Positions 1-46,132 of a DNA stretch of 46,132 bases are shown here, piece by piece. The stretch lies in IMG/VR virus record IMGVR_UViG_3300046780_000058, positions 1 to 46,132 of that record, one strand, 5' to 3'. The position numbers and the translations under genes were made by a program. Within the stretch, counting starts at the first letter, position 1, and each line of letters starts with the position of its first letter. Under the pieces are notes generated by a model. It searched no databases. It was given only the letters and a program-made list of their open reading frames with translations, and was not told where the DNA came from. Origin of the DNA: a virus.

Positions 1-12
1 ACCAGTATTTCG

Positions 13-30
13 TGTCCGCTGGCGTGGACA
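13..30. repeat. Hairpin A of the dyad
   Basis: TGTCC (13-17) and GGACA (26-30) form an 18-nt inverted repeat with an 8-nt loop. Its mirror partner is the equally long hairpin at 104-121, with the same stem sequence but a different loop. Both lie the same distance from the axis at 67. Confidence 0.75.
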
Positions 31-103
31 GTATTGAGAGTAGTGTTCTTTTATTTTTTTTTTTTTTTTTTTTTACTATATAATATTATCCCCCTACACC
101 ATA

Positions 104-121
104 TGTCCTAATAAGGGGACA
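104..121. repeat. Hairpin B of the dyad
   Basis: TGTCC (104-108) and GGACA (117-121) form an 18-nt inverted repeat with loop TAATAAGG. It has the same stem as hairpin A (13-30) and is placed symmetrically around the poly-T axis, which suggests two copies of one binding or cleavage site. Confidence 0.75.
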
Positions 122-207
122 GGATATACTGGTATATAGCGAGCCGGGAGAGAGGGTAGGGTATGCCTAAGTCCTTTATCCACCGCGCTTTAGCGGAAAT
201 CGGCGGG

Positions 208-258
208 TAGGAAAGATATAGGAAAGGACTACGAAAAGGGTAGGAAACAGGTAGGAAA
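208..258 (+). repeat. Five iterons at 11-bp spacing (TAGGAAA), right set
   Basis: TAGGAAA occurs at 208, 219, 241 and 252, with a variant TACGAAA at 230, so five units sit at exactly 11-bp steps. That is about one helical turn, which puts all sites on one face of the DNA. The left set at 45864-45914 has the opposite orientation and the same spacing. This is the pattern of an initiator- or regulator-binding array. Confidence 0.85.
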
Positions 259-368
259 CTCCCGACACCAGACAATATTATAAGTCTCTACACAATGATT
301 AGATTATGGTAGAGCTGGTTAATTATCAGGGATTACAGCCCGGCCATATTCTAAACAGCATAATAAAA

Positions 369-410
369 GTGTCACCTAAAGAGGACACAAAGTGTGCCAG
401 TAACGCACAC
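369..410. repeat. Two small tandem inverted repeats upstream of promoter
   Basis: GTGTC (369-373) can pair with GACAC (384-388), and GTGTGC (392-397) with GCACAC (405-410). They lie 57-98 bp upstream of the strong promoter at 467-496. They may be operators or parts of a leader RNA from the upstream promoter. Apart from these, I see nothing I can name in the stretch 259-466. Confidence 0.4.
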
Positions 411-466: not shown

Positions 467-496
467 TTGACACATTTCTCGGGATGTGCCTATAAT
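467..496 (+). promoter_or_regulatory. Strong sigma-70 promoter driving the main plus-strand operon
   Basis: TTGACA (467-472), an 18-bp spacer and TATAAT (491-496) match the bacterial sigma-70 consensus in both hexamers. The first gene starts at 570 with AAAGGACAG as ribosome site. A small dyad TGTG/CACA (461-464, 471-474) overlaps the -35 box and could be an operator. The promoter implies that early transcription uses the host RNA polymerase. Confidence 0.85.
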
Positions 497-800: not shown

Positions 801-955
801 TGCGTTCCGTTATCATTAACTTTCTTGACGGATACTGGAAAATTGGTCTGATGCAGGATATGGTCGTTATGCATCGGGTCGATACTTCTAACTATCACAA
901 TATTGGAAGCATCGTTTCCAATTGGATTATTAACAATACTGTGGATACACTCTAA
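800..955 (+). CDS. Small hypothetical protein (51 aa)
   Basis: ATG at 800 overlaps the stop of the previous gene as TAATG, and its own TAA at 953-955 overlaps the ATG of the next gene in the same way. The 51-residue product (starts MRSVIINFLDGYWKIG) has no recognisable motif. The tight stop-start coupling on both sides is the main evidence that it is translated. Confidence 0.6.
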   Translation: MRSVIINFLDGYWKIGLMQDMVVMHRVDTSNYHNIGSIVSNWIINNTVDTL

Positions 956-1746
956 TGTTGCATACTTTCAAAGCCGGGACCATCGACCCAACGAAATGTG
1001 TCACCTGCAAACGTGCGGCTGATATGCATGATTGCGATATTTGTGGCGCTCAGGATGTTAGCGTCCAAGTAAAGTTTGGCAATATGCTAATGTGCGGCCC
1101 ATGCACTGAGAACGAAGAACGTCTGTATGCTGAGTCCCAGCGCCCTGAAAATGTGGCTGCTCGTGTCGAGACTCAACAAAAGGCCGCTGAGATTAATGCG
1201 GTCCTGAATCAGGCGAAAACAATCGATGAATCAGTCACAGTCAAGTCAGAGATTTTCAATGCTGAGACTGTTTCACTCGATGAGATTAAGGCCGCTATTG
1301 AAGCGGACGCCGCTATCGAAAACAAGCCTTTCGCATTAGCCGAACAAGTTAAAGCACGTTTTGAGCATCTCACTAACGTGGTGTTCGAGCTAAACAATCA
1401 GATAGTTGAAGCTACCAATCGTCAGAAAGCTATTCAGGTTTACTTGAATCAGCTTGCTAATAAGCTACGCGCTGAAGAACGCGAAAAGCTTAAAATCAGC
1501 GACCTGTCATATCAGCCAAAACCAGTCAAGTCTGCTACACCTAAGCCGATTAAGACTAGCGGCGCCAAGAAAAATAAGGCGCTCGACAAGGCTGAATTGC
1601 GGAAATACGCTGCTGAATTGGGCGTCGCGGAATTCACGCTACAGTCTATTATCGTTTCAAAGGGTGTCACGGTTCAAGTAGCCGCCAACATTCTGCGTGA
1701 GAAACTTGCTATCATGAAGTCTAGTCTCAAAAAGGAAGGTGTGTAA
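955..1746 (+). CDS. Zinc-ribbon plus coiled-coil protein, unknown function
   Basis: 263 residues. The first 50 contain three CxxC-type pairs (CVTC, CDIC, CGPC), a double zinc-ribbon pattern. Residues about 60-170 are rich in A/E/K/Q with heptad-like spacing, likely helical or coiled-coil. A K/P-rich linker leads to a C-terminal helical segment (AELRKYAAELGVAEF...) that looks like a small SAP/HTH-like domain. Start and stop overlap the neighbours as TAATG. It could bind nucleic acid; I do not recognise a named family. Confidence 0.85.
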   Translation: MLHTFKAGTIDPTKCVTCKRAADMHDCDICGAQDVSVQVKFGNMLMCGPCTENEERLYAESQRPENVAARVETQQKAAEINAVLNQAKTIDESVTVKSEIFNAETVSLDEIKAAIEADAAIENKPFALAEQVKARFEHLTNVVFELNNQIVEATNRQKAIQVYLNQLANKLRAEEREKLKISDLSYQPKPVKSATPKPIKTSGAKKNKALDKAELRKYAAELGVAEFTLQSIIVSKGVTVQVAANILREKLAIMKSSLKKEGV

Positions 1747-2078: not shown

Positions 2079-4232
2079 ATGAATAGACAAGACGCATACA
2101 ATCTAACTAAAGATGAGCTTAAAGCTCACGGTTTGACTGAGTGGGGCGTTCGTATGTCTCAGGACATTAACGCGCCGTTTCTTGGAATGTGCATGTATAA
2201 GGATAAGGTTATCATCCTTAACGCGCATCATGTTGACGTTCACCCGTATCTGGAAATTGTGGATACGATTAAACATGAAGTAGCCCACGCACTTTGCCCC
2301 GGACATGGACATGACGATGTATGGTCTCAAAAAGCCCGTGACATTGGCTGCACTAATACGTTACCCTGCTCACATCTTTCGCTGCCGATGCATGTTATTG
2401 ATGCTATTCGTAGCGGACAGATGGTGGAAATGGAAGTCGAAGAAAAGGTAATCACACAAGTTATTCGCACACCGAAGTATACTGTTACTCGGTTGCAGGA
2501 TAAATGTCCTGATTGTGGTAAAGTAGCCGTCGAAAAGTTCTCATTCGAGACTATCGATAAGGCTGGCAACACAGTTAAGATGATTACTCTTGAGTGCTTC
2601 CACATTATCAAGAAAATCATTCCACGCGGCACACCATTCGAGACGATGGTTTCTAACGGTTGGAAACCAGAAGTAGCCGAATGTAAGCATGATTGGGATA
2701 AGCATCAGTGCAGACTCTGTAATGAGTTTCGCCTTATGCCATTCCAAATCAAAGGTGCAATGTCATGTGAGTCTGGCCTTTCAATGCAGAAAGGTTTTGG
2801 ACTATTCGATGACATGGGACTTGGTAAAACAGTTCAGGCATTAGCTGTAATCAAGTTTCACTGGGAAATCTACACACCTACGCTATACGTTGTGAAGTCT
2901 GCTATCACATTCCAGTGGTTAAAGCAGATTCACCGTTGGCTCGGCCCTACATTTTTGGGACAGATTATCAAGTCTGGTAAAGACCCAATTCTGCCGGGCC
3001 TCAAGACATACATCATCAGCTACGATTTGTTGCGTCGTATTAAGCGTGAGAAATTACACGCTGTTGGATTCAAGCTGGTAATTCTCGATGAGTGCCAGCA
3101 GATTAAGAATCCTGATTCCACGCGCACACAGGAAGTTCGCAAGTTAGTTGGATTGCCTAACGTTAAGGTTATCCCACTTTCAGGAACACCGTGGAAGAAT
3201 CGTGGTGGTGAGTTTTTCCCTGTGTTGAATATGATGGACCCCATTAAGTTCCATTCATATCAGCACTACCTTGAAACGTGGGTTAGTTACTACTATCAAG
3301 GTAATCAGAAGAAAATGGGCGGAATTAAGAACGTCAAGAGATTCCGCGAATTCACTGAGTCAATGCTGATTCGCCGTGAGTTCAATGAAGTGATTGAGGA
3401 TTTTCCAGAAATCAACCGCATGAAATTGAATGTGCAGTTGGACGATTTGCAACAGGATACCTACGATGATGAAGTTTCTGATTTCGTCAAGTGGTATAAT
3501 GAGGCAGTAATCGGTGGAGAGGAAGATTCTCTCAATGGCCTTGAATTGTTGGCGAAAATGTCCCGTATGCGTCACATTACGGGCCTTGCTAAGATACCGG
3601 CTACACTTGGTTTCATCGAAGAATTTGTCGAGGATACCGATAAGAAGCTGGTAGTATTCGTTCATCACAAAGATGTGGGTGAGCTAATGTATGGGGCGCT
3701 GAAAGATACACAGCATCCTATATATGGTGAGCTTGCAAAGACACTGATTTCTGAGAATGTCAGCGTATTCAAGTATACGTCTGAACTGTCAGATAGTGAA
3801 CGGTTTGAAATGCAGGAACTGTTCAATAAGACACCACGCGCTATTATGATTGCATCTACACTGGCTTGTGGTGAAGGTGTTGACTTGCAATCATGCGCTG
3901 ATAGCGTAATGCATGAACGTCAGTGGAATCCACAGAATGAGGACCAAGCAGCACCCGGTCGCTTCCGTCGTATCGGGCAACTGTCAAAGGTTATCAATGT
4001 GACATTCACTGAGGCTGAGGGAACTATCGATGAACATCTCGATTACATCATCAGCACAAAGCGTAGACACTTCCATGAAGTTATGAATAAAGGCGAAGTG
4101 CCAGTATTCAATCAGGGAGAGTTTGCGAAGCAGCTTGCAGAGTTAATCGTGAACAAGCACAAGGAACGTAACAAGGGTAAGGCAAAGCCTGTTATCGTTA
4201 AGTCTGTGACTGCGCAAGCGTCATTCAGGTAA
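2079..4232 (+). CDS. SprT-like metalloprotease fused to SNF2-family DNA helicase/translocase
   Basis: 717 residues. The N-terminus (about 1-100) carries the SprT signature: zinc-protease motif HEVAH at 66-70, then GHGHDDVW, where H76 or H78 could be the third ligand. Next come Cys clusters near 143-146 and 202-214. From about residue 219 there is a SNF2 core: Walker A DDMGLGKT (244-251), DEAD-type box DECQ (337-340), SGTPW, and a C-terminal half with FRRIGQ corresponding to motif VI. SprT proteins cleave DNA-protein crosslinks; SNF2 ATPases move on duplex DNA. The fusion suggests clearing of protein roadblocks from phage DNA. Activity is inferred; the domains are clear. Confidence 0.9.
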   Translation: MNRQDAYNLTKDELKAHGLTEWGVRMSQDINAPFLGMCMYKDKVIILNAHHVDVHPYLEIVDTIKHEVAHALCPGHGHDDVWSQKARDIGCTNTLPCSHLSLPMHVIDAIRSGQMVEMEVEEKVITQVIRTPKYTVTRLQDKCPDCGKVAVEKFSFETIDKAGNTVKMITLECFHIIKKIIPRGTPFETMVSNGWKPEVAECKHDWDKHQCRLCNEFRLMPFQIKGAMSCESGLSMQKGFGLFDDMGLGKTVQALAVIKFHWEIYTPTLYVVKSAITFQWLKQIHRWLGPTFLGQIIKSGKDPILPGLKTYIISYDLLRRIKREKLHAVGFKLVILDECQQIKNPDSTRTQEVRKLVGLPNVKVIPLSGTPWKNRGGEFFPVLNMMDPIKFHSYQHYLETWVSYYYQGNQKKMGGIKNVKRFREFTESMLIRREFNEVIEDFPEINRMKLNVQLDDLQQDTYDDEVSDFVKWYNEAVIGGEEDSLNGLELLAKMSRMRHITGLAKIPATLGFIEEFVEDTDKKLVVFVHHKDVGELMYGALKDTQHPIYGELAKTLISENVSVFKYTSELSDSERFEMQELFNKTPRAIMIASTLACGEGVDLQSCADSVMHERQWNPQNEDQAAPGRFRRIGQLSKVINVTFTEAEGTIDEHLDYIISTKRRHFHEVMNKGEVPVFNQGEFAKQLAELIVNKHKERNKGKAKPVIVKSVTAQASFR

Positions 4233-4295: not shown

Positions 4296-4613
4296 ATGAC
4301 TACATCACTACAGCGTAAGCATTATCTCAAAGACGGTATCTGTCCGAACTGTAAGATTAGACCAATAGTTCCAACACATACTGCTTGTGAGACATGCAGA
4401 GAAGCTAACCATAAATGGATGGAGGCTAATAAAGAACATACTAGAATTAGGAATAAGATTAGATACGATAGACTAGTCAGTCTAGGATTGTGTGTCAGTT
4501 GTAAGAAACCAACGGACGGTAGAAAGTATTGTCAAGTATGTCAGGACAAAATTAACGCCCGTCGTGCTTATTACAAGCCACTACATTCTAGGAATAAGTG
4601 GAGTAAACGATAA
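4296..4613 (+). CDS. Duplicated zinc-ribbon protein (105 aa)
   Basis: Two Cys4 modules: CPNC...CETC in the first third and CVSC...CQVC in the last third, separated by a basic helical stretch. The composition is strongly basic (Lys, Arg, Tyr), suggesting nucleic-acid binding. The stop TAA overlaps the ATG of the next gene. The Cys layout resembles the zinc frame of HNH-associated proteins, but there is no HNH triad, so I do not call it a nuclease. Confidence 0.8.
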   Translation: MTTSLQRKHYLKDGICPNCKIRPIVPTHTACETCREANHKWMEANKEHTRIRNKIRYDRLVSLGLCVSCKKPTDGRKYCQVCQDKINARRAYYKPLHSRNKWSKR

Positions 4614-8148: not shown

Positions 8149-8583
8149 ATGCCTGTAGTTCAATTCGGTAAGCGCGACCTTCTCCGTGGCAAAGTTGTAA
8201 CACCAGCGTGGTATCGTTGCAAGATTGAGTCTGTGGGAGAGGCTCCCGCAAAGCAGTCCGAGAAGGGTCCGTCTACCAACTATCCCGTTGAAGCTACTAT
8301 TCTGTTCAACGGCGACAATGGCGACACTACGTTTTCGGATGTTCCGATTGACTACAATTTCAATAGCAAGGCTATTGGTTTTGCAGTCGGTTTCTTGCAG
8401 GCTTTCGGTGTGGACGTTAAGCCGAATACCCGCTTCGATTTGAAGTCTGCCGAAGGTCGTCAGGTGGACATCTATATCGAAAACGATACGTGGCAGGGAC
8501 GCATGGTGAATCGCGTCAACCACAAGTATCGTCCCATTCGTGAGGACGTGACGCCGGTTCCGACAGCAACTGCTGCTGAGTAA
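8149..8583 (+). CDS. Probable phage single-stranded DNA-binding protein
   Basis: 144 residues, preceded by AGGAGTGTGAC. Beta-rich sequence with short strands and glycines in the first 130 residues, then a disordered tail ending in AAE. It sits immediately after the Sak4-like ATPase, where phages often place an SSB of the DUF669/DUF2815 kind. Fold and role are inferred from context and composition; no diagnostic motif is visible. Confidence 0.6.
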   Translation: MPVVQFGKRDLLRGKVVTPAWYRCKIESVGEAPAKQSEKGPSTNYPVEATILFNGDNGDTTFSDVPIDYNFNSKAIGFAVGFLQAFGVDVKPNTRFDLKSAEGRQVDIYIENDTWQGRMVNRVNHKYRPIREDVTPVPTATAAE

Positions 8584-11236: not shown

Positions 11237-11425
11237 ATGATAGCTAAAAGTGTAACTAAATCCGTCGAAATTGGCGGGAATGATGAAATTGCAATCGAGA
11301 TGGAAGAACGGTGCAGTATGTGTGAGTGCTCAATTCCAGATGGATTTGTTGTGCTTCGCCATACAGAAACTAACAACATAATCTGTGTTCCATGTTTGGG
11401 ATTGATTGCGTTGATAGATGACTGA
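11237..11425 (+). CDS. Small zinc-ribbon protein, 62 aa
   Basis: Contains CSMCEC and a later CVPC, so one zinc-ribbon-like site in a 62-residue chain. Overlaps the start of the DNA polymerase gene by 8 bases, indicating coupled translation. No named family. It may be a polymerase accessory factor by position only. Confidence 0.7.
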   Translation: MIAKSVTKSVEIGGNDEIAIEMEERCSMCECSIPDGFVVLRHTETNNIICVPCLGLIALIDD

Positions 11426-14096
11426 ACATAAATACATTCCCGGCTATGGTCCCTTTGGGGCTAAGATGATGATACTACTGGAATGTCCCACTTACGAGGA
11501 CACTCTAGCTGGTAAACTATTCTCAAAAGGTGGTGAGACTACACGACTCATGCATGAAGTAGGAATTAATCCTGCTGAATGTTGGATAACGTCAGTCTCC
11601 AAATTCACAATTCCACCTAATGCCAACCGTGCAAAGAAAATTCCATTTGCTGTCAGAGCGAAGAATCATGGGGTAGATATTGCACAGCAGTTGGAAGAAC
11701 TCCAAAACGAAATCAATAGTATTCAACCTAATGTCATACTTGGGTTGGGTAAATCTTCTCTCTGGGGTCTTACTGGAAAAACCGATATTGAATCGTATCG
11801 GGGTAGTATCCTATCTGGTATGGGGCGGAAGTTCGTTCCTACTTATAATCCTGCTCATCTCAGTTGGCAAGCAAGTGATATTGAGTTTACAGGATACTGG
11901 AATCGACAAGTCATGGCGTTCGATATGCGCCGGGCTAAAACACAGTCTTACTTTCCTGAGATAAATCGTCCATCGCGAACCTTACAGATAGCTAAGAATA
12001 GCTTTGACCTGTATGAGTTTCGGGACCGTTATCGTAAGCTAGGTAAGAAAAGGCTGTCCGTCGATATTGAAGCCAATGGAACATGCATGCCAGTTTGTAT
12101 AGGCTTCTCTTTCACTAAGTCACATGGTATCTGTGTTCCACTGTGGAATGTAGACGGAATATCAAACATACCAACAGCCGATATGGTCCAAATTTGGATT
12201 ATGGTTGCTGATATGTTAATTGAGAATGACATAGTAGGACAAAACTTCAACTATGACAGAGATAAAATTAAGCGTCTCGGATTTGTTATCAGGAAACTGG
12301 CATCAGACGTTATGCTTAAAGCACATGCTATTAATCCTGAATTGGGCAAAAGCCTCGCGTTCACTACATCACTATATACTGAGGAGCCCTTCTACAAGAA
12401 CGAGGGAATGTATCAGGGGTCAGTGCAAGATTTGTTCCTCGGATGCGCTAGAGATGCATGTGTTACTATTGAAATAGATGAAGCTATGGATGCTGATTTA
12501 GACGAGATTAATCAGCGTCCGTTCTTCGAGAATTTCCTCATGAAATTGCCCGAACTATATTGGGGAATAGAAAATCAGGGGTTTCGAGTTGACACAAATG
12601 AACGAGATAGACTACTCCGAAAGTATATCGAGTGGGATGAGAAACTCCGCTACGAACTATTTAGTCTTGTGGGGACTGAAATTAACGTTAATTCTCCCAA
12701 GCAGGTGGCAATCCTGTTATTCGATAACTTCAAGCTACCCCGTAAAGCGGGAACAGGCGAAGAAGAAATCACAGCATTGCTCAACTCACAGTCTGCCGTT
12801 AAGAATGAAACTCACCGTAGAGTATTGGAGCTTATCCTTGAGGACAGACGGGTAAGAAAATCTATCTCTACCTATCTAATGGCTATGCCAGACTTTGATG
12901 ATAGGATGAGAACTACTTACTATATGTGTCTTGAAACTGGTAGAACTTCTACTGGACAACAAGACCCACCTATACGTCCAACCATCGATGTAATTGATGA
13001 GAATGGAAAGAAGAAGGATAAGGTATTAGGCATCGCGTTCCAAACCATGACTAAACATGGTGACATTGGAGCAGACATTCGCGGAATGTATGTGCCTGAT
13101 TTACCTGAATACGATGAGCGTGAAGCAGCATACCGAAAATACTGCAACGACAATGGTATAGAAATAGAGGATGACGAGGAGGTTTTTGTTCAGGCTGACT
13201 CATCGCAAGCTGAGGCTAGAGTAGTCTGGTTATTAGCGGCTGATGAAGATGCATTGAGGTTAGTAGATGAAATTGACTATCACGCTCTCACTGCTACTTG
13301 GTTCTTCGGTGGTGTTGAATCTGATTACTCTAAAAAGGTATTGGGCTACGAACATCCTATTAGGTTTACTGGTAAGACTTTGCGCCATGCAGGACACCTC
13401 GGTGCAGGAAAGCGCAGGGCAGCTACTTCGGTCAATACAGACGCAAGGAAGTATAAGATACCTATTTCGATTACAGAGGCTATTGCGGAAAGAGCACTTA
13501 AAATCTTCCATGCAAAACAGCCCAAAATCCAGCAAGTTTTCCATGCTGGTATTGAAGAATGTATTAAGAAGGACAGAACTCTAATAGCTCCATTACCGTG
13601 GGGGATTGATGCTGAATTCGGCGGACGTAGGATGTTCTTTGAGCGTTATGGAGATGAGCTATTACGTCAAGCATTTAGCTACATCCCACAACGTGCCGTC
13701 AGTGATAATACTAAGGCTGCGGGATTGCGCATCAAACATCGTATCCCGGTCATTAAAATCGTTATGGAAGCGCACGATGCGCTACTATTCTGTATACGAC
13801 GCTCGAAATTACCGGAATACATCCCGGTTATTAAGCAGGAGATGGAGCGTCCAATCATTTTCAAGAATTGTAGCCTCAAGCGTAGGTCGCTCTCAATACC
13901 ATGCGATATCGAAATAGGCACAAACTATAAAGACCTTAAGAAGTTTAAGGACTTTACTATTCAGGACATAATTAAACCTCCTGTCGAGTTGAGTATGCCG
14001 CCAAAGACGGTAACTGAATCCTTTATGGCAGATACTGTCCCAATGGACACTCCTTTGGACAAAGTTATCTATGATAACTGGGAGCGTAAACAGTGA
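11418..14096 (+). CDS. Family-A DNA polymerase with N-terminal UDG-like domain and 3'-5' exonuclease
   Basis: 892 residues. Residues about 9-150 follow the family-4/5 uracil-DNA glycosylase layout (GPFGAKMMIL..., NVILGLG, RGSI, PTYNPAHL); N144 stands where a catalytic-loop His is usual, so the domain may be non-catalytic. The exonuclease has D216/E218 (SVDIE), N276/D280 and D346. Polymerase motifs: A at 594-601 (DSSQAEAR), B at 649-662 (R649, K653, then HAGHLG in place of the usual FG..YG), C at H786-D787. SPO1-type phages also carry a UDG-like N-terminus on PolA. This is the replicative polymerase. Confidence 0.93.
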   Translation: MTEHKYIPGYGPFGAKMMILLECPTYEDTLAGKLFSKGGETTRLMHEVGINPAECWITSVSKFTIPPNANRAKKIPFAVRAKNHGVDIAQQLEELQNEINSIQPNVILGLGKSSLWGLTGKTDIESYRGSILSGMGRKFVPTYNPAHLSWQASDIEFTGYWNRQVMAFDMRRAKTQSYFPEINRPSRTLQIAKNSFDLYEFRDRYRKLGKKRLSVDIEANGTCMPVCIGFSFTKSHGICVPLWNVDGISNIPTADMVQIWIMVADMLIENDIVGQNFNYDRDKIKRLGFVIRKLASDVMLKAHAINPELGKSLAFTTSLYTEEPFYKNEGMYQGSVQDLFLGCARDACVTIEIDEAMDADLDEINQRPFFENFLMKLPELYWGIENQGFRVDTNERDRLLRKYIEWDEKLRYELFSLVGTEINVNSPKQVAILLFDNFKLPRKAGTGEEEITALLNSQSAVKNETHRRVLELILEDRRVRKSISTYLMAMPDFDDRMRTTYYMCLETGRTSTGQQDPPIRPTIDVIDENGKKKDKVLGIAFQTMTKHGDIGADIRGMYVPDLPEYDEREAAYRKYCNDNGIEIEDDEEVFVQADSSQAEARVVWLLAADEDALRLVDEIDYHALTATWFFGGVESDYSKKVLGYEHPIRFTGKTLRHAGHLGAGKRRAATSVNTDARKYKIPISITEAIAERALKIFHAKQPKIQQVFHAGIEECIKKDRTLIAPLPWGIDAEFGGRRMFFERYGDELLRQAFSYIPQRAVSDNTKAAGLRIKHRIPVIKIVMEAHDALLFCIRRSKLPEYIPVIKQEMERPIIFKNCSLKRRSLSIPCDIEIGTNYKDLKKFKDFTIQDIIKPPVELSMPPKTVTESFMADTVPMDTPLDKVIYDNWERKQ

Positions 14097-14468: not shown

Positions 14469-14640
14469 GCCACCATACACTAACAACACTAATCCACTAT
14501 TGGTGCCTAAGCCTCGCGTTGTGGAATGTCCCTATTGTCTATATGAGGTAGAAACTGATTTACCCGCACCGATGTGTGGAATCTGCAACCATCAGTTGAT
14601 AACTGTAGTAAATGGCAAGCTGGCTAAACGAAATAGTTAA
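14449..14640 (+). CDS. Zinc-ribbon protein, 63 aa
   Basis: CPYC and CGIC separated by about 17 residues form a rubredoxin-knuckle-like zinc ribbon in the second half; the first 20 residues look disordered. Overlaps the following helicase-like gene by 29 bases. Probably a small DNA-replication accessory or regulatory protein; function unknown. Confidence 0.7.
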   Translation: MTISHFKPPYTNNTNPLLVPKPRVVECPYCLYEVETDLPAPMCGICNHQLITVVNGKLAKRNS

Positions 14641-15892
14641 ACAACATGACGAATTAGAATCACCTCTGAGTTTTTGGCGCTGGAGTGGTATAGCGGCTAT
14701 TTCTGCTGTAGTGAAAGACCAAGTGTGGATGGACAGGCAAATCTTTAACCTGTATCCAAACATATACGTCATGTTACACGCTGACTCAGGACTTAAAAAG
14801 GGTCCACCAGTTAGTATGGCAAGACAGTTGGTTAAGGCAGTAAATAATACGAGAATCATCGCAGGACGTTCATCGATTCAGGGAATTCTAAAAGAACTAG
14901 GGACTGCCTATACTCAGCCCGGTGGGAAAGTTATGAACAAATCCGTGGCGTTTATATGCAGTTCTGAGTTGTCGTCGTCAATTGTAGGCGACCCTGTTGC
15001 GACTAAGATTCTCACCGACCTTTACGATAGACAGTATAACGTCGGCGAATGGAAATCATTGTTAAAGATGGAATCTTTTGAGTTAAAAGACCCTACTGTA
15101 ACAATGCTCACTGCCACCAATGAAGCTATGGGTGAGGACTTTTTCACCAAAGCTGCCATACAAGGTGGTTATTTTGCAAGAACGTTCATTGTCTACGAAA
15201 AGACCGGCGACAATGTTAATTCACTGAATTACCCACTAGAGCATAAACCGAACTATGCAGTTAGTGCTAACTATCTCAAAGAACTAGCTAAATTGAATGG
15301 ACAGTTTAAGACCTTCGCGACTTTAGAGAAAGACGATGAATACAGATTTAAGAAAGTAATCAAAGGTCGAGACATCTATTTCAATGAGGTTGGTATCATC
15401 TACGAGGACTGGTATCATGGCTTCAAAGAGTTAATGAAGCTACAGGAAATCAAGGATGAGACTGGAACTATGAATAGATTTGGTGACTCAGTTCTCAAGG
15501 TAGCAATGCTATTGAGTTTAGCTGAGTGTCCATGTCTAGTAATATCCGAATCCGCGATGCGCGAAGCTATTGGTGAATGTGAAAGACTATTAGGTAATGC
15601 GCGTAAGACTACTCTCGGTAAGCACGGTATGAGTAGTGCTGCGCTCCTGAAATCTATGGTCATTATGGAACTGTTGAATCGAGAGGAACACAACGTATCA
15701 CGAACAGTGTTGATGAAGAAGATGTGGATGCATTACCAACACAGTCAAGAGTTCGATGATATGATGCAGACTTTCGATGCATCAGGAATGATTAAAACTG
15801 AATCCATAGGGAATCAAATCATTTACCGTATGCCTGACGAACAGGTTAAAGAACTTAAGAAGTTCATGGCTGGAAAGGGCCATAAACAATGA
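14612..15892 (+). CDS. DUF3987-type P-loop ATPase, probable replicative helicase
   Basis: 426 residues. The opening SPLSFWRWSGIAAISAVV...LYPNIYVMLHADSGLKKG is the standard start of DUF3987/primase-helicase proteins; the P-loop is ADSGLKKG (57-64), where the usual Ser/Thr after Lys is replaced. ICSSELSSS and VTMLTATNEA fit Walker B and sensor positions. The C-terminus (about 340-426) looks like a winged helix. It follows the polymerase gene, which supports a helicase role. No primase motif is present, so primase must be elsewhere or host-derived. Confidence 0.75.
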   Translation: MASWLNEIVKQHDELESPLSFWRWSGIAAISAVVKDQVWMDRQIFNLYPNIYVMLHADSGLKKGPPVSMARQLVKAVNNTRIIAGRSSIQGILKELGTAYTQPGGKVMNKSVAFICSSELSSSIVGDPVATKILTDLYDRQYNVGEWKSLLKMESFELKDPTVTMLTATNEAMGEDFFTKAAIQGGYFARTFIVYEKTGDNVNSLNYPLEHKPNYAVSANYLKELAKLNGQFKTFATLEKDDEYRFKKVIKGRDIYFNEVGIIYEDWYHGFKELMKLQEIKDETGTMNRFGDSVLKVAMLLSLAECPCLVISESAMREAIGECERLLGNARKTTLGKHGMSSAALLKSMVIMELLNREEHNVSRTVLMKKMWMHYQHSQEFDDMMQTFDASGMIKTESIGNQIIYRMPDEQVKELKKFMAGKGHKQ

Positions 15893-16802: not shown

Positions 16803-16884
16803 GCCGGGTTGGTGAAATTGGCAGACACAACGGACTTAAAATCCGTCGCAGTAATGCATATCGGTTCGACCCCGATACCCGGCA
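16803..16884 (+). tRNA. tRNA-Leu (anticodon TAA)
   Basis: Class II tRNA of 82 nt. Acceptor GCCGGGT (16803-16809) pairs with ACCCGGC (16877-16883), discriminator A at 16884, no encoded CCA. Anticodon stem ACGGA/TCCGT encloses loop CTTAAAA with TAA at 16837-16839. A long variable arm follows, and the T stem ATCGG/CCGAT encloses TTCGACC. It would decode UUA (and UUG by wobble). It is part of the plus-strand operon. Confidence 0.97.
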
Positions 16885-16890
16885 CTTACT

Positions 16891-43018: not shown

Positions 43019-43260
43019 TATGTTCTCTTTTCCGTTCTCCTATCAGTTCGTTCCTCTATCACTGCTGTCAAACGCTTAAATTCACCTGATAATTCAGTGA
43101 GTTTATCAGATATTTCATGCATGTCATCTCGAAGATTCTCACGCCATTTTTCTAATTCTTCCACACGCGCACTGAGATGACCTGAACGATATGTAACATT
43201 AGCAATGAGTGTAGCAATAGTTAGGAGGATGCCCATTATAGCGAATGACGCCGGACTCAT
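43018..43260 (-). CDS. Single-TM plus coiled-coil protein, holin/spanin-like candidate
   Basis: 80 residues. An N-terminal hydrophobic helix (SFAIMGILLTIATLIANV) is followed by a charged coiled coil (VEELEKWRENLRDDMHEISDKLTEL, seen as a region near 32-57) and a very basic tail. This is the layout of i-spanins and XhlA-type proteins. It is the only lysis candidate in the minus arm; unproven. Confidence 0.65.
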   Translation of the reverse strand: MSPASFAIMGILLTIATLIANVTYRSGHLSARVEELEKWRENLRDDMHEISDKLTELSGEFKRLTAVIEERTDRRTEKRT

Positions 43261-43838
43261 TCTTTTGCGTGTATGACCTCATATGAACGTTCATCTCTAA
43301 ATTGTGGTGCATACACAACGAATTGAGGAACTGGTGCTTTGTCTCTACCATTGTCCAGAACTTCCGGTTCAAGAGTTTTAATAACAGCAGACATATCTTT
43401 AGCGATGCCAGCTAAATCACGCGCTTTGGCTTCGCCTAATTTCTCAGGAGTAAGATGTTCAAGAGCGCCCATTAATCTATTCATCGCACGCTTCTGCACG
43501 CGAATACGTGACTTAGCAATGATAGATGTATTTGGTGTCTTATCGTAGGAAGCAGTGGAAGTGGAACCGTGAGTGTATGCAGATACTGCGGAGGGAGATA
43601 TGCCAAACTGTCTACCTAATTCAAGAGCATCACTTCGCCCATTTTCAAAGGCTGTAGCTCCTATCATTTGGCGTAATGAATCCGGAACATTGATATCACC
43701 TTCCTTACGACCAGGAACAGGCATATCAACTATCTCAGCTTCAATAGTAGGTTGAGATGGTGTGTTGGCGACAGGTTTAGGTTTAGAGTTATTCAACTCT
43801 TTATCAAACTCGTCAGGAGAAACTATACCCATCGCCAT
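43257..43838 (-). CDS. Probable terminase small subunit
   Basis: 193 residues, just upstream of the large terminase gene block. ALELGRQFGISPSAVSAYTHG (about residues 71-91) is a helix-turn-helix typical of small terminases, with further helices behind it (RVQKRAMNRLMGALEHLTPEKL). AAAGAGAT ribosome site. Role: recognises the packaging site and hands it to the large subunit. Inferred from HTH and position. Confidence 0.65.
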   Translation of the reverse strand: MAMGIVSPDEFDKELNNSKPKPVANTPSQPTIEAEIVDMPVPGRKEGDINVPDSLRQMIGATAFENGRSDALELGRQFGISPSAVSAYTHGSTSTASYDKTPNTSIIAKSRIRVQKRAMNRLMGALEHLTPEKLGEAKARDLAGIAKDMSAVIKTLEPEVLDNGRDKAPVPQFVVYAPQFRDERSYEVIHAKE

Positions 43839-44809: not shown

Positions 44810-45166
44810 ATGAAAACCCTAGTCGGAAAGTTCACGTTCGCAATTCCGGAAAACCATCCGGAGGCTGGCAAGAAAATTGAAAAGGCTTTCGAGTATCAGG
44901 AAACTGAGAATGATGCCGAAGCCAATCAGGTTCTGGTTGACAAGAAATTGTCACTTCAGGATTTGGTAAACGATAAGCTCAAGGCTAACGCCCGGAGTAA
45001 TTCGTATCAGGCGGCACTTCTGCCGTATCGTCCTTCGGAATTGTCGGCTGATGAAATCAAGGAACGCATGGTGCGCGATTTCATTCGACTCGGGATTCCG
45101 GAAGAAATGGCACGCAAGCAAGTGGATGCCATGTTGGCCGCTAACGCGGAACCCGTCACTGAGTAG
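44810..45166 (+). CDS. First leader gene of the plus arm, 118 aa
   Basis: Follows the promoter with a GGAG-containing leader. Beta-like N-terminus (LVGKFTFAIPENHPEAG), charged middle and a helical C-terminus (ADEIKERMVRDFIRLGIPEEMARKQVDAML, seen near 79-110). No family recognised. It is followed by a perfect terminator hairpin, so its mRNA is probably abundant and separate, typical for an immediate-early protein. Confidence 0.75.
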   Translation: MKTLVGKFTFAIPENHPEAGKKIEKAFEYQETENDAEANQVLVDKKLSLQDLVNDKLKANARSNSYQAALLPYRPSELSADEIKERMVRDFIRLGIPEEMARKQVDAMLAANAEPVTE

Positions 45167-45179
45167 TTCCGACTAACAC

Positions 45180-45213
45180 GGCGCCGGATGCTAACATAGG
45201 TCCGGCGCCTTTT
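45180..45213 (+). terminator. Strong intrinsic terminator
   Basis: GGCGCCGGA (45180-45188) pairs perfectly with TCCGGCGCC (45201-45209) around a 12-nt loop and is followed by TTTT. It lies 14 bases after the stop of the leader gene and 14 bases before the next gene, so the latter may depend on read-through or antitermination. Confidence 0.85.
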
Positions 45214-45227
45214 CTAAGGCTACAATT

Positions 45228-45416
45228 ATGAAATTGCATAATGCTGTGAATACTGACGAATTACGTCTGGCAATGGAATGGTATCGGAAACTTTCGCCCG
45301 ATTATCGTGTCGCACTTGCGAAAGCGATGCGCAGTGTTGATGCCTGCAATGTTGACGGAACGCGGGTTCTTATCGCCACTTTCAGAATGGTAATGAGACA
45401 GGTAGTCAGCAGGTAA
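45228..45416 (+). CDS. Small leader protein, 62 aa
   Basis: Begins 14 bases downstream of the terminator. MKLHNAVNTDELRLAMEWYR, then a helical YRVALAKAMRSVDACNV and a basic end. Poor ribosome site; no family motif. It would be made only if transcription passes the terminator. Moderately sure that it is a gene. Confidence 0.6.
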   Translation: MKLHNAVNTDELRLAMEWYRKLSPDYRVALAKAMRSVDACNVDGTRVLIATFRMVMRQVVSR

Positions 45417-45775: not shown

Positions 45776-45863
45776 CTATTCATTCATTACATTGTGATTT
45801 TAATAAGAGCTATTCTAGTTCTAAAAATGACTCAGATTCACTTTTGGAATGTAGATTTCGGTG

Positions 45864-45914
45864 TTTCCTAGTCGTTTCCATGTTCTTTCCGATACGTTTC
45901 CTATGCCTTTCCTA
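45864..45914 (-). repeat. Five iterons at 11-bp spacing, left set (inverted)
   Basis: TTTCCTA occurs at 45864, 45897 and 45908 with variants TTTCCAT at 45875 and TTTCCGA at 45886: five units in exact 11-bp steps. They are the inverse of the TAGGAAA set at 208-258 and lie at mirror positions about the poly-T axis. The variants are not always at mirrored positions, so the units are related but not maintained as one exact palindrome. Confidence 0.85.
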
Positions 45915-45988
45915 CCTCCGATATTCCCCTAACCCGTTGATTTAGAAGCACTTAGCTTAGACCCCCCCTCTCTCCCCTACCTCGACCC
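45864..45988. other. Left arm of the ~380-bp dyad
   Basis: Contains the left iterons, CTTAG (45951-45955) and CCTCTCTC (45967-45974), each mirrored by an element at 167-171 and 148-155. The arm is joined to the axis only when the contig ends are closed, which is why the symmetry is not obvious in the linear window. Confidence 0.7.
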
Positions 45989-46132
45989 ACCAGTATTTCG
46001 TGTCCGCTGGCGTGGACAGTATTGAGAGTAGTGTTCTTTTATTTTTTTTTTTTTTTTTTTTACTATATAATATTATCCCCCTACACCATATGTCCTAATA
46101 AGGGGACAGGATATACTGGTATATAGCGAGCC
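45989..46132. repeat. Terminal direct repeat, right copy
   Basis: Repeats bases 1-145 with one T fewer in the poly-T run (T20). Everything in it is described for the left copy. A homopolymer difference of one base is within sequencing or polymerase slippage, so the two copies may be one physical locus. Confidence 0.97.

Follow-up and report, generated by a model that had tools for sequence, protein, structure and literature searches.

The window analysed, the whole 46,132-nt IMG/VR virus record IMGVR_UViG_3300046780_000058, contains a dyad of about 385 bp (each arm about 195 bp) that, judging from its sequence, is probably the phage's bidirectional DNA replication origin, at which an initiator bound to inverted iteron arrays would melt a central T run. 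Among the readings considered, this one is best supported because the DNA of lowest stability in the genome is surrounded by conserved mirrored iterons and the phage encodes, as a candidate initiator, a conserved protein resembling MCM helicases. The likeliest initiator, going by its structural model and by analogy, is this DUF3987 protein, which would act as a helicase that loads itself, as SaPI Rep or SCCmec Cch2 does.

For numbering, the circle was closed at 45988 nt, so that the two positions of each mirror pair sum to 134 (Table 1). The mirror symmetry around circular centre 67 is real and far above chance. Within ±420 nt of this centre, 22 mirrored 6-mers were found in register, against at most 7 at every other centre in the genome, and alignment of the right arm with the reversed left arm gave a gapped score of 123, the maximum of 300 shuffles being 71. 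A previous sequence-only reading had claimed that the named element pairs mirror each other to the base about position 67, and every pair indeed does so; the central T run is also non-palindromic and 20–21 nt long, as it had stated. Its two iteron sets are mirrored, but they comprise about ten units rather than seven, because each arm holds five consecutive 11-mers (205–259 and 45863–45917). The CTAAG/CTTAG pair that it listed is present as the edge of a 27-bp palindrome on each arm. TAGGAAA units at 208–214, 219–225, and 252–258 are perfect mirrors of 45908–45914, 45897–45903, and 45864–45870, and the unit at 241–247 matches its mirror in only 5 of 7 positions. The order outward from the T run is AATAATATATAATATTATA-like DNA (nearest the run, on the early side), TGTCC..GGACA, the 27-bp palindrome, and the iterons. 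The junction of the contig ends proved genuine, since full-length relatives (G003, G004, G006, G009, G012, G019, and G022) carry the same structure inside their contigs.

Table 1. Features of the dyad region and of the candidate binding proteins, in window coordinates (a point marks features listed with no strand)
Feature	Position	Strand	Remark
Central T run, T21, centre of the dyad	54..74	+	Second copy 46042-46061, T20
T run + TATATAATATTAT, putative DNA unwinding element	49..95	.	Lowest-stability 40- and 60-mer in the genome
Late-side TGTCC-N8-GGACA palindrome, 18 bp	13..30	.	Second copy 46001-46018
Early-side TGTCC-N8-GGACA palindrome, 18 bp	104..121	.	Exact mirror position of 13-30; second copy near 46091-46108
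ACCAGTAT	1..8	.	Mirrors 126-133
ATACTGGT	126..133	.	Mirrors 1-8
GGAGAGAGG	147..155	.	Mirrors 45967-45975
CCTCTCTCC	45967..45975	.	Mirrors 147-155
Early-side TAAGT-N15-ACTTA palindrome, degenerate in the window	167..192	.	
Late-side TAAGT-N15-ACTTA palindrome, degenerate in the window	45929..45955	.	
Early-side array of five 11-bp iterons (nnnTAGGAAAn)	205..259	+	
Late-side array of five 11-bp iterons	45863..45917	-	Inverted mirror of 205-259
Third TGTC..GACA-type site, beyond the dyad	370..389	+	
Sigma70-like promoter (TTGACA..TATAAT) for early genes	467..496	+	
First early protein, conserved, 263 aa, alternative candidate binder	955..1746	+	Zn ribbon, long helix, C-terminal 3-helix domain
DUF3987 'primase', candidate initiator helicase	14612..15892	+	Predicted MCM-like AAA+ fold, C-terminal winged helix
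Small HTH protein upstream of terL, putative terminase small subunit	43257..43838	-	Binder if the site serves packaging

Symmetric layouts with diverged sequence, which the sequence-only reading had suggested seeking in related phage contigs, were found in dozens of relatives, and checking these for the same neighbouring genes without the mirrored elements did not overturn the claim. The sequence preceding the SNF2-type helicase gene was long enough in 43 distinct loci, and 35 of these carried a run of at least 10 T's, located 1–4.4 kb upstream of this gene and on its strand, i.e., that of the early genes; no runs of at least 10 A's or T's were found downstream of the helicase gene in 270 kb. 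The centre of the dyad coincides with the T run in the relatives. Three loci (L007, L029, and L076) lack a T run of 10, yet retain the dyad, with an AT-rich centre or close to a T9 run.

Both arms, in the window and in its relatives, contain the short, regularly spaced direct repeats that define iteron arrays, about five 11-mers per arm, with a pitch of 11 or 22 bp and in mirrored orientation; matches in the opposite orientation are rare. The 11-mer pooled over the family has the core RGAAW, and its other half is genome-specific and common to both arms of one genome: nnnTAGGAAAn in the window, TTCACGGAAnn in L004, ACACGAGAAAn in L007, and GACTTGGnAnT in L025. The iterons of L071 are a mixture of two types.

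The arms thus change in concert. For 31 genomes, the mean score of a right arm against its own left arm was 71, compared with 31 against the left arms of other genomes and 27 in a direct-orientation control, and the own arm pair ranked first in 27 of them (counted from the score table). Own-arm agreement exceeded cross-genome agreement in the iterons (0.63 vs 0.46); the excess was modest in the inner segments and absent just beyond the outer iteron (0.41 vs 0.41). Such agreement, confined largely to the iterons, would fit selection by one binding protein or iteron-limited conversion between the arms. A selected long hairpin would not produce this pattern, and it is very unlikely that a long hairpin or cruciform made of the whole arm is functional in itself as a single-stranded DNA origin, a hairpin primer, or a resolution site. 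Folding of both strands, a check that the sequence-only reading had proposed, did pair arm with arm in a 383-nt single strand (z −6.7 for the top strand and −8.0 for the bottom one), but any dyad would fold so; moreover, the arms of the relatives show indels between each other and modest similarity, and the 11-bp phasing favours binding sites on duplex DNA.

The 27-bp palindrome TAAGT-N15-ACTTA was present on both arms with up to two mismatches in 21 of 23 near genomes (background 0.16 per window) and with up to one mismatch in 15 of 23 (background 0.02). The spacing from palindrome to iterons agrees between the arms modulo 11, within ±1, in all 14 of 14 genomes. This helical register, held on both arms despite changing sequences and distances, points to a protein on duplex DNA. 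The TGTCC..GGACA site is exact in the window and in L076; as a universal part of the dyad it was rejected and is considered optional, since no more than 12 of 23 near genomes have it on both arms, the per-window background being 31%.

In all seven complete genomes (the window and six relatives), no 40-mer is less stable than the one at the T run, so that the repeats adjoin a putative AT-rich unwinding element of low stability, as is typical of iteron origins. Of seven near genomes, four have their cumulative GC-skew minimum no more than 132 nt from the T run; in the window (2.5 kb) and two others it is about 2.5–3.2 kb away. An extremum was also found within 150 nt of the centre in three distant phages, Kuura, vir526, and Mel-JY34, with the opposite sign in Mel-JY34. 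However, the skew is confounded by transcription, since the opposite extremum coincides with the convergence of the gene arms at about 18 kb.

Three other assignments of the centre were rejected. Nothing supports a recombination or resolution site, one of the three readings initially offered beside an origin and a genome terminus: the T run at the centre is not palindromic, and the proteins scanned included no resolvase. A telomere-resolution site of the N15 telRL type needs a perfect central palindrome, whereas here a T run without palindromic symmetry is flanked by imperfectly mirrored arms. An intrinsic terminator was dismissed because the nearest hairpin (13–30) ends 23 nt before the T run (54–74) rather than immediately adjoining it.

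In the far relatives (45–55% helicase identity), the T run is kept, TGTC sites occur often, and iteron-like repeats are found mainly on the late side. Eight of ten far-group loci have a strong sigma70 promoter 24–60 nt to the right of the T run, with TGTCC..GGACA sites nearby; the loci with such a promoter at 24–111 nt and TGTC..GACA sites close to it are L035, L037, L042, L044, L046, L049, L059, L068, and L050. One of these, L042, contains T22 at 3109–3130 and A19 at 4473–4491, about 1.35 kb apart and in inverted relation. The far-group promoters, like that of the window, would suit a regulatory region with operators and promoters between early and late genes, in which the T run is an upstream promoter element. 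There is little likelihood of this, because near-group promoters occur at scattered distances, usually with none close to the T run, and ten phased iterons are excessive for an operator. Nor can the dyad be a simple divergent promoter, since rightward genes on the late side (44810–45416) point into it. The TGTCC sites may well be operators located inside an origin.

A similar plan of the dyad was recognized in distant phages whose polymerase is only about 25% identical. The arm scores were 77 in ctMlz233 (null maximum 37), 99 in ctLwi270 (null maximum 36), 74 in vir526 from a methanogen enrichment (null maximum 39), 48 in Mel-JY34 (null maximum 42), and 65 in a Desulfofustis phage (null maximum 69, p 0.0014). 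The genome of ctMlz233 contains GGAAATGGC four times, two per arm and 22 bp apart. Searches with near-group profiles found only the polymerase and the DUF3987 protein in all dyad-bearing distant phages. Phages 119X and Tiera encode the DUF3987 protein, and a dyad was searched for in them and not found. As for the hosts, a search of bacterial genomes returned only ordinary SNF2 helicases.

The contig of the window ends in an overlap of 144/145 nt, with T20 in one copy and T21 in the other. It is probably an assembly overlap in a contig broken at the homopolymer; a true terminal repeat is not supported, since the copies differ by one T and exact end overlaps of 127 nt occur at unrelated positions in several full-length relatives. 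The latter look like the k-mer length of the assembler. Many fragments of relatives stop at the T run or up to about 100 nt from it, the distance differing among them, and the T run would account for the tendency of assemblies of such phages to break at one spot. A 62-kb IMG/VR contig, 3300036851_000016 (L019, L082, L094, and L233), carries the polymerase region twice and probably represents two related phages joined in assembly.

The clustering of contig ends at the T run could also be expected if the site initiated packaging and formed a genome terminus, with the small terminase subunit bound to the iterons and the large subunit cutting near the T run. The putative terS is about 2 kb away from the dyad, which separates the early from the late gene arm, and circular k-mer-closed assemblies are compatible with terminal repeats. 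For the cultured Caulobacter phage Kuura, a 606-bp direct terminal repeat was determined with PhageTerm (PMC9959647). Its record contains exactly this repeat, which begins on the late side of the T run at a distance of 55 nt, and the terminus reading is alive because this distant relative thus has a physical genome end so close to the run. We nevertheless regard it as unlikely. The many distances between contig ends and the T run are explained by breaks at the homopolymer, and the 127-nt overlaps occur at other places. The arms of Kuura are weakly symmetric (score 35, p 0.025), and its T run is outside the terminal repeat. A melting element flanked by mirrored arrays exceeds the needs of a cut site. 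In addition, conservation across dyad-bearing phages is recognisable for the polymerase and the MCM-like protein but not for the small HTH protein, a weak argument because terS genes evolve fast. Terminus and origin may share the one large non-coding region as neighbours, or packaging may be the role of the dyad.

If the dyad is an origin, the DUF3987 protein, rather than the 263-aa neighbour or another protein, may bind it. In its structural model, the winged helix (residues 342–424) has a pLDDT of mostly 74–89, and the AAA+ part is of low confidence (mean pLDDT 55). Comparison of the whole model with the PDB, including this low-confidence AAA+ part, was headed by MCM chains (Z 12.8, 335 residues), and the best Foldseek E-value was 6e-4. 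The P-loop-like motif is unusual, SGxKKGPP, and nearly invariant in 21 aligned sequences. Identification of the binder by co-divergence failed: none of the eight proteins tried, including the 263-aa neighbour and the putative terS, tracked the divergence of the iterons, the rank correlations being about 0. Since near-identical winged helices (L213 and L222) go with partly different iteron flanks (L020 and L071), the DUF3987 protein could read at most the conserved core. The model of the 263-aa protein had no PDB match at E 0.001, and no consistent PHROG was assigned to this protein.

In the DNA polymerase (11418–14096), a family A polymerase is fused to an N-terminal domain that resembles uracil-DNA glycosylase. 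A SprT-like domain is fused to the SNF2-type helicase (2079–4232), whose gene adjoins the dyad in dozens of phages. The 144-aa ORF at 8149–8583 is about 70% conserved in 70 loci and has no PHROG or NCBIfam match. A single tRNA-Leu (taa) at 16803–16885 marks the end of the early arm.

With its arrays of about five 11-bp repeats on either side of a central region, the dyad also brings R1 parC to mind, and a centromere-like partition site with two iteron arrays, as in parC or tubC, could have this appearance. It is extremely improbable here, because no relatives of ParA, ParM, or TubZ were found among the proteins scanned, which were part of the ORFs, and the gene content is that of a lytic phage.

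Under the origin reading, the phage initiator would bind the two inverted 11-bp iteron arrays on one helix face per turn and build up symmetrically to the left and right of the T run. This run and the AT-rich DNA next to it would then melt, and two helicases could be set down in opposite directions, followed by synthesis by the family A polymerase; we infer both the loading of two helicases and the direction of the forks. The dyad is a widely conserved feature. The sequence-only reading knew of no described phage origin with this combination, and no description of such a mirrored T-run and iteron phage origin was found in the open-access literature, although related principles are known from SaPI/SCCmec and RepA_N systems. 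Tentatively, and with some doubt, it may represent an undescribed class of phage origin, in which phased 11-bp iterons are arranged with two-fold symmetry around an oriented poly-T melting element, an MCM-like helicase would self-load as a head-to-head pair, and the arms switch iteron specificity together. Such a class would be ancient, spanning polymerases of about 25% identity from uncultured soil phages, the Caulobacter phage Kuura, a cyanobacterial phage, and probably an archaeal virus.

If this is true, the origin of a large group of uncultured phages is unusually symmetric and could be recognized from sequence alone in any relative. These phages would use an MCM-like helicase, an enzyme better known from archaea, eukaryotes, and staphylococcal islands. 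The family would be a natural experiment in which both arms repeatedly switch their binding sequence together, and the recognition code of the initiator and the loader-free, face-to-face placement of two helicases would become testable. Kuura provides a culturable handle on the dyad family.

In the pac region of SPP1, terminase sites are located on both sides of the cut. Regions of this type, like the terminus of Kuura with its terminal repeat 55 nt from the T run, share with the dyad a position between gene arms, but the iterons and melting element exceed what a cut site needs. In herpes simplex oriL and in the core origins of SV40 and papillomaviruses, initiator sites are symmetric about an AT-rich centre, and two helicases are loaded facing away from each other. 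The layout is alike, while the viruses and initiators are different, and no homology is claimed; recognition by LTag/E1 is mentioned in PMC7581432. RepA_N-type origins (pTZ2162, pSK41, and PLE of Vibrio cholerae) also have iterons around a poly-A tract. Their inverted repeat of 3–13 bp, however, lies within a single iteron, whereas the phage dyad has arms of about 195 bp with separate iteron arrays, and no match to a RepA_N initiator was found among the window proteins scanned (part of the ORFs).

The closest functional parallel proposed is with the staphylococcal elements, in which SaPI Rep and SCCmec Cch2 use their C-terminal domains to contact iterons, apparently in the form of two hexamers (PMC7581432). 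SaPI Rep and SCCmec Cch and Cch2 are self-loading helicases of the MCM-like or D5 type that work at iteron origins, and the phage protein has a predicted MCM-like fold with a C-terminal winged helix, the AAA+ part of its model being of low confidence. We suggest, by analogy, that it works like SaPI Rep or Cch2. Membership in that group is not claimed, because SaPI and SCCmec origins are directly beside the helicase gene, and the DUF3987 gene (14612–15892) is about 14.5 kb from the dyad centre at 67. The putative Cch2 origin contains three AAGTG iterons in a 23-bp direct-repeat region, while the phage structure unites about 5 + 5 inverted 11-mers, two classes of palindromes, and a T run of 10–28 nt in one dyad of about 385 bp.
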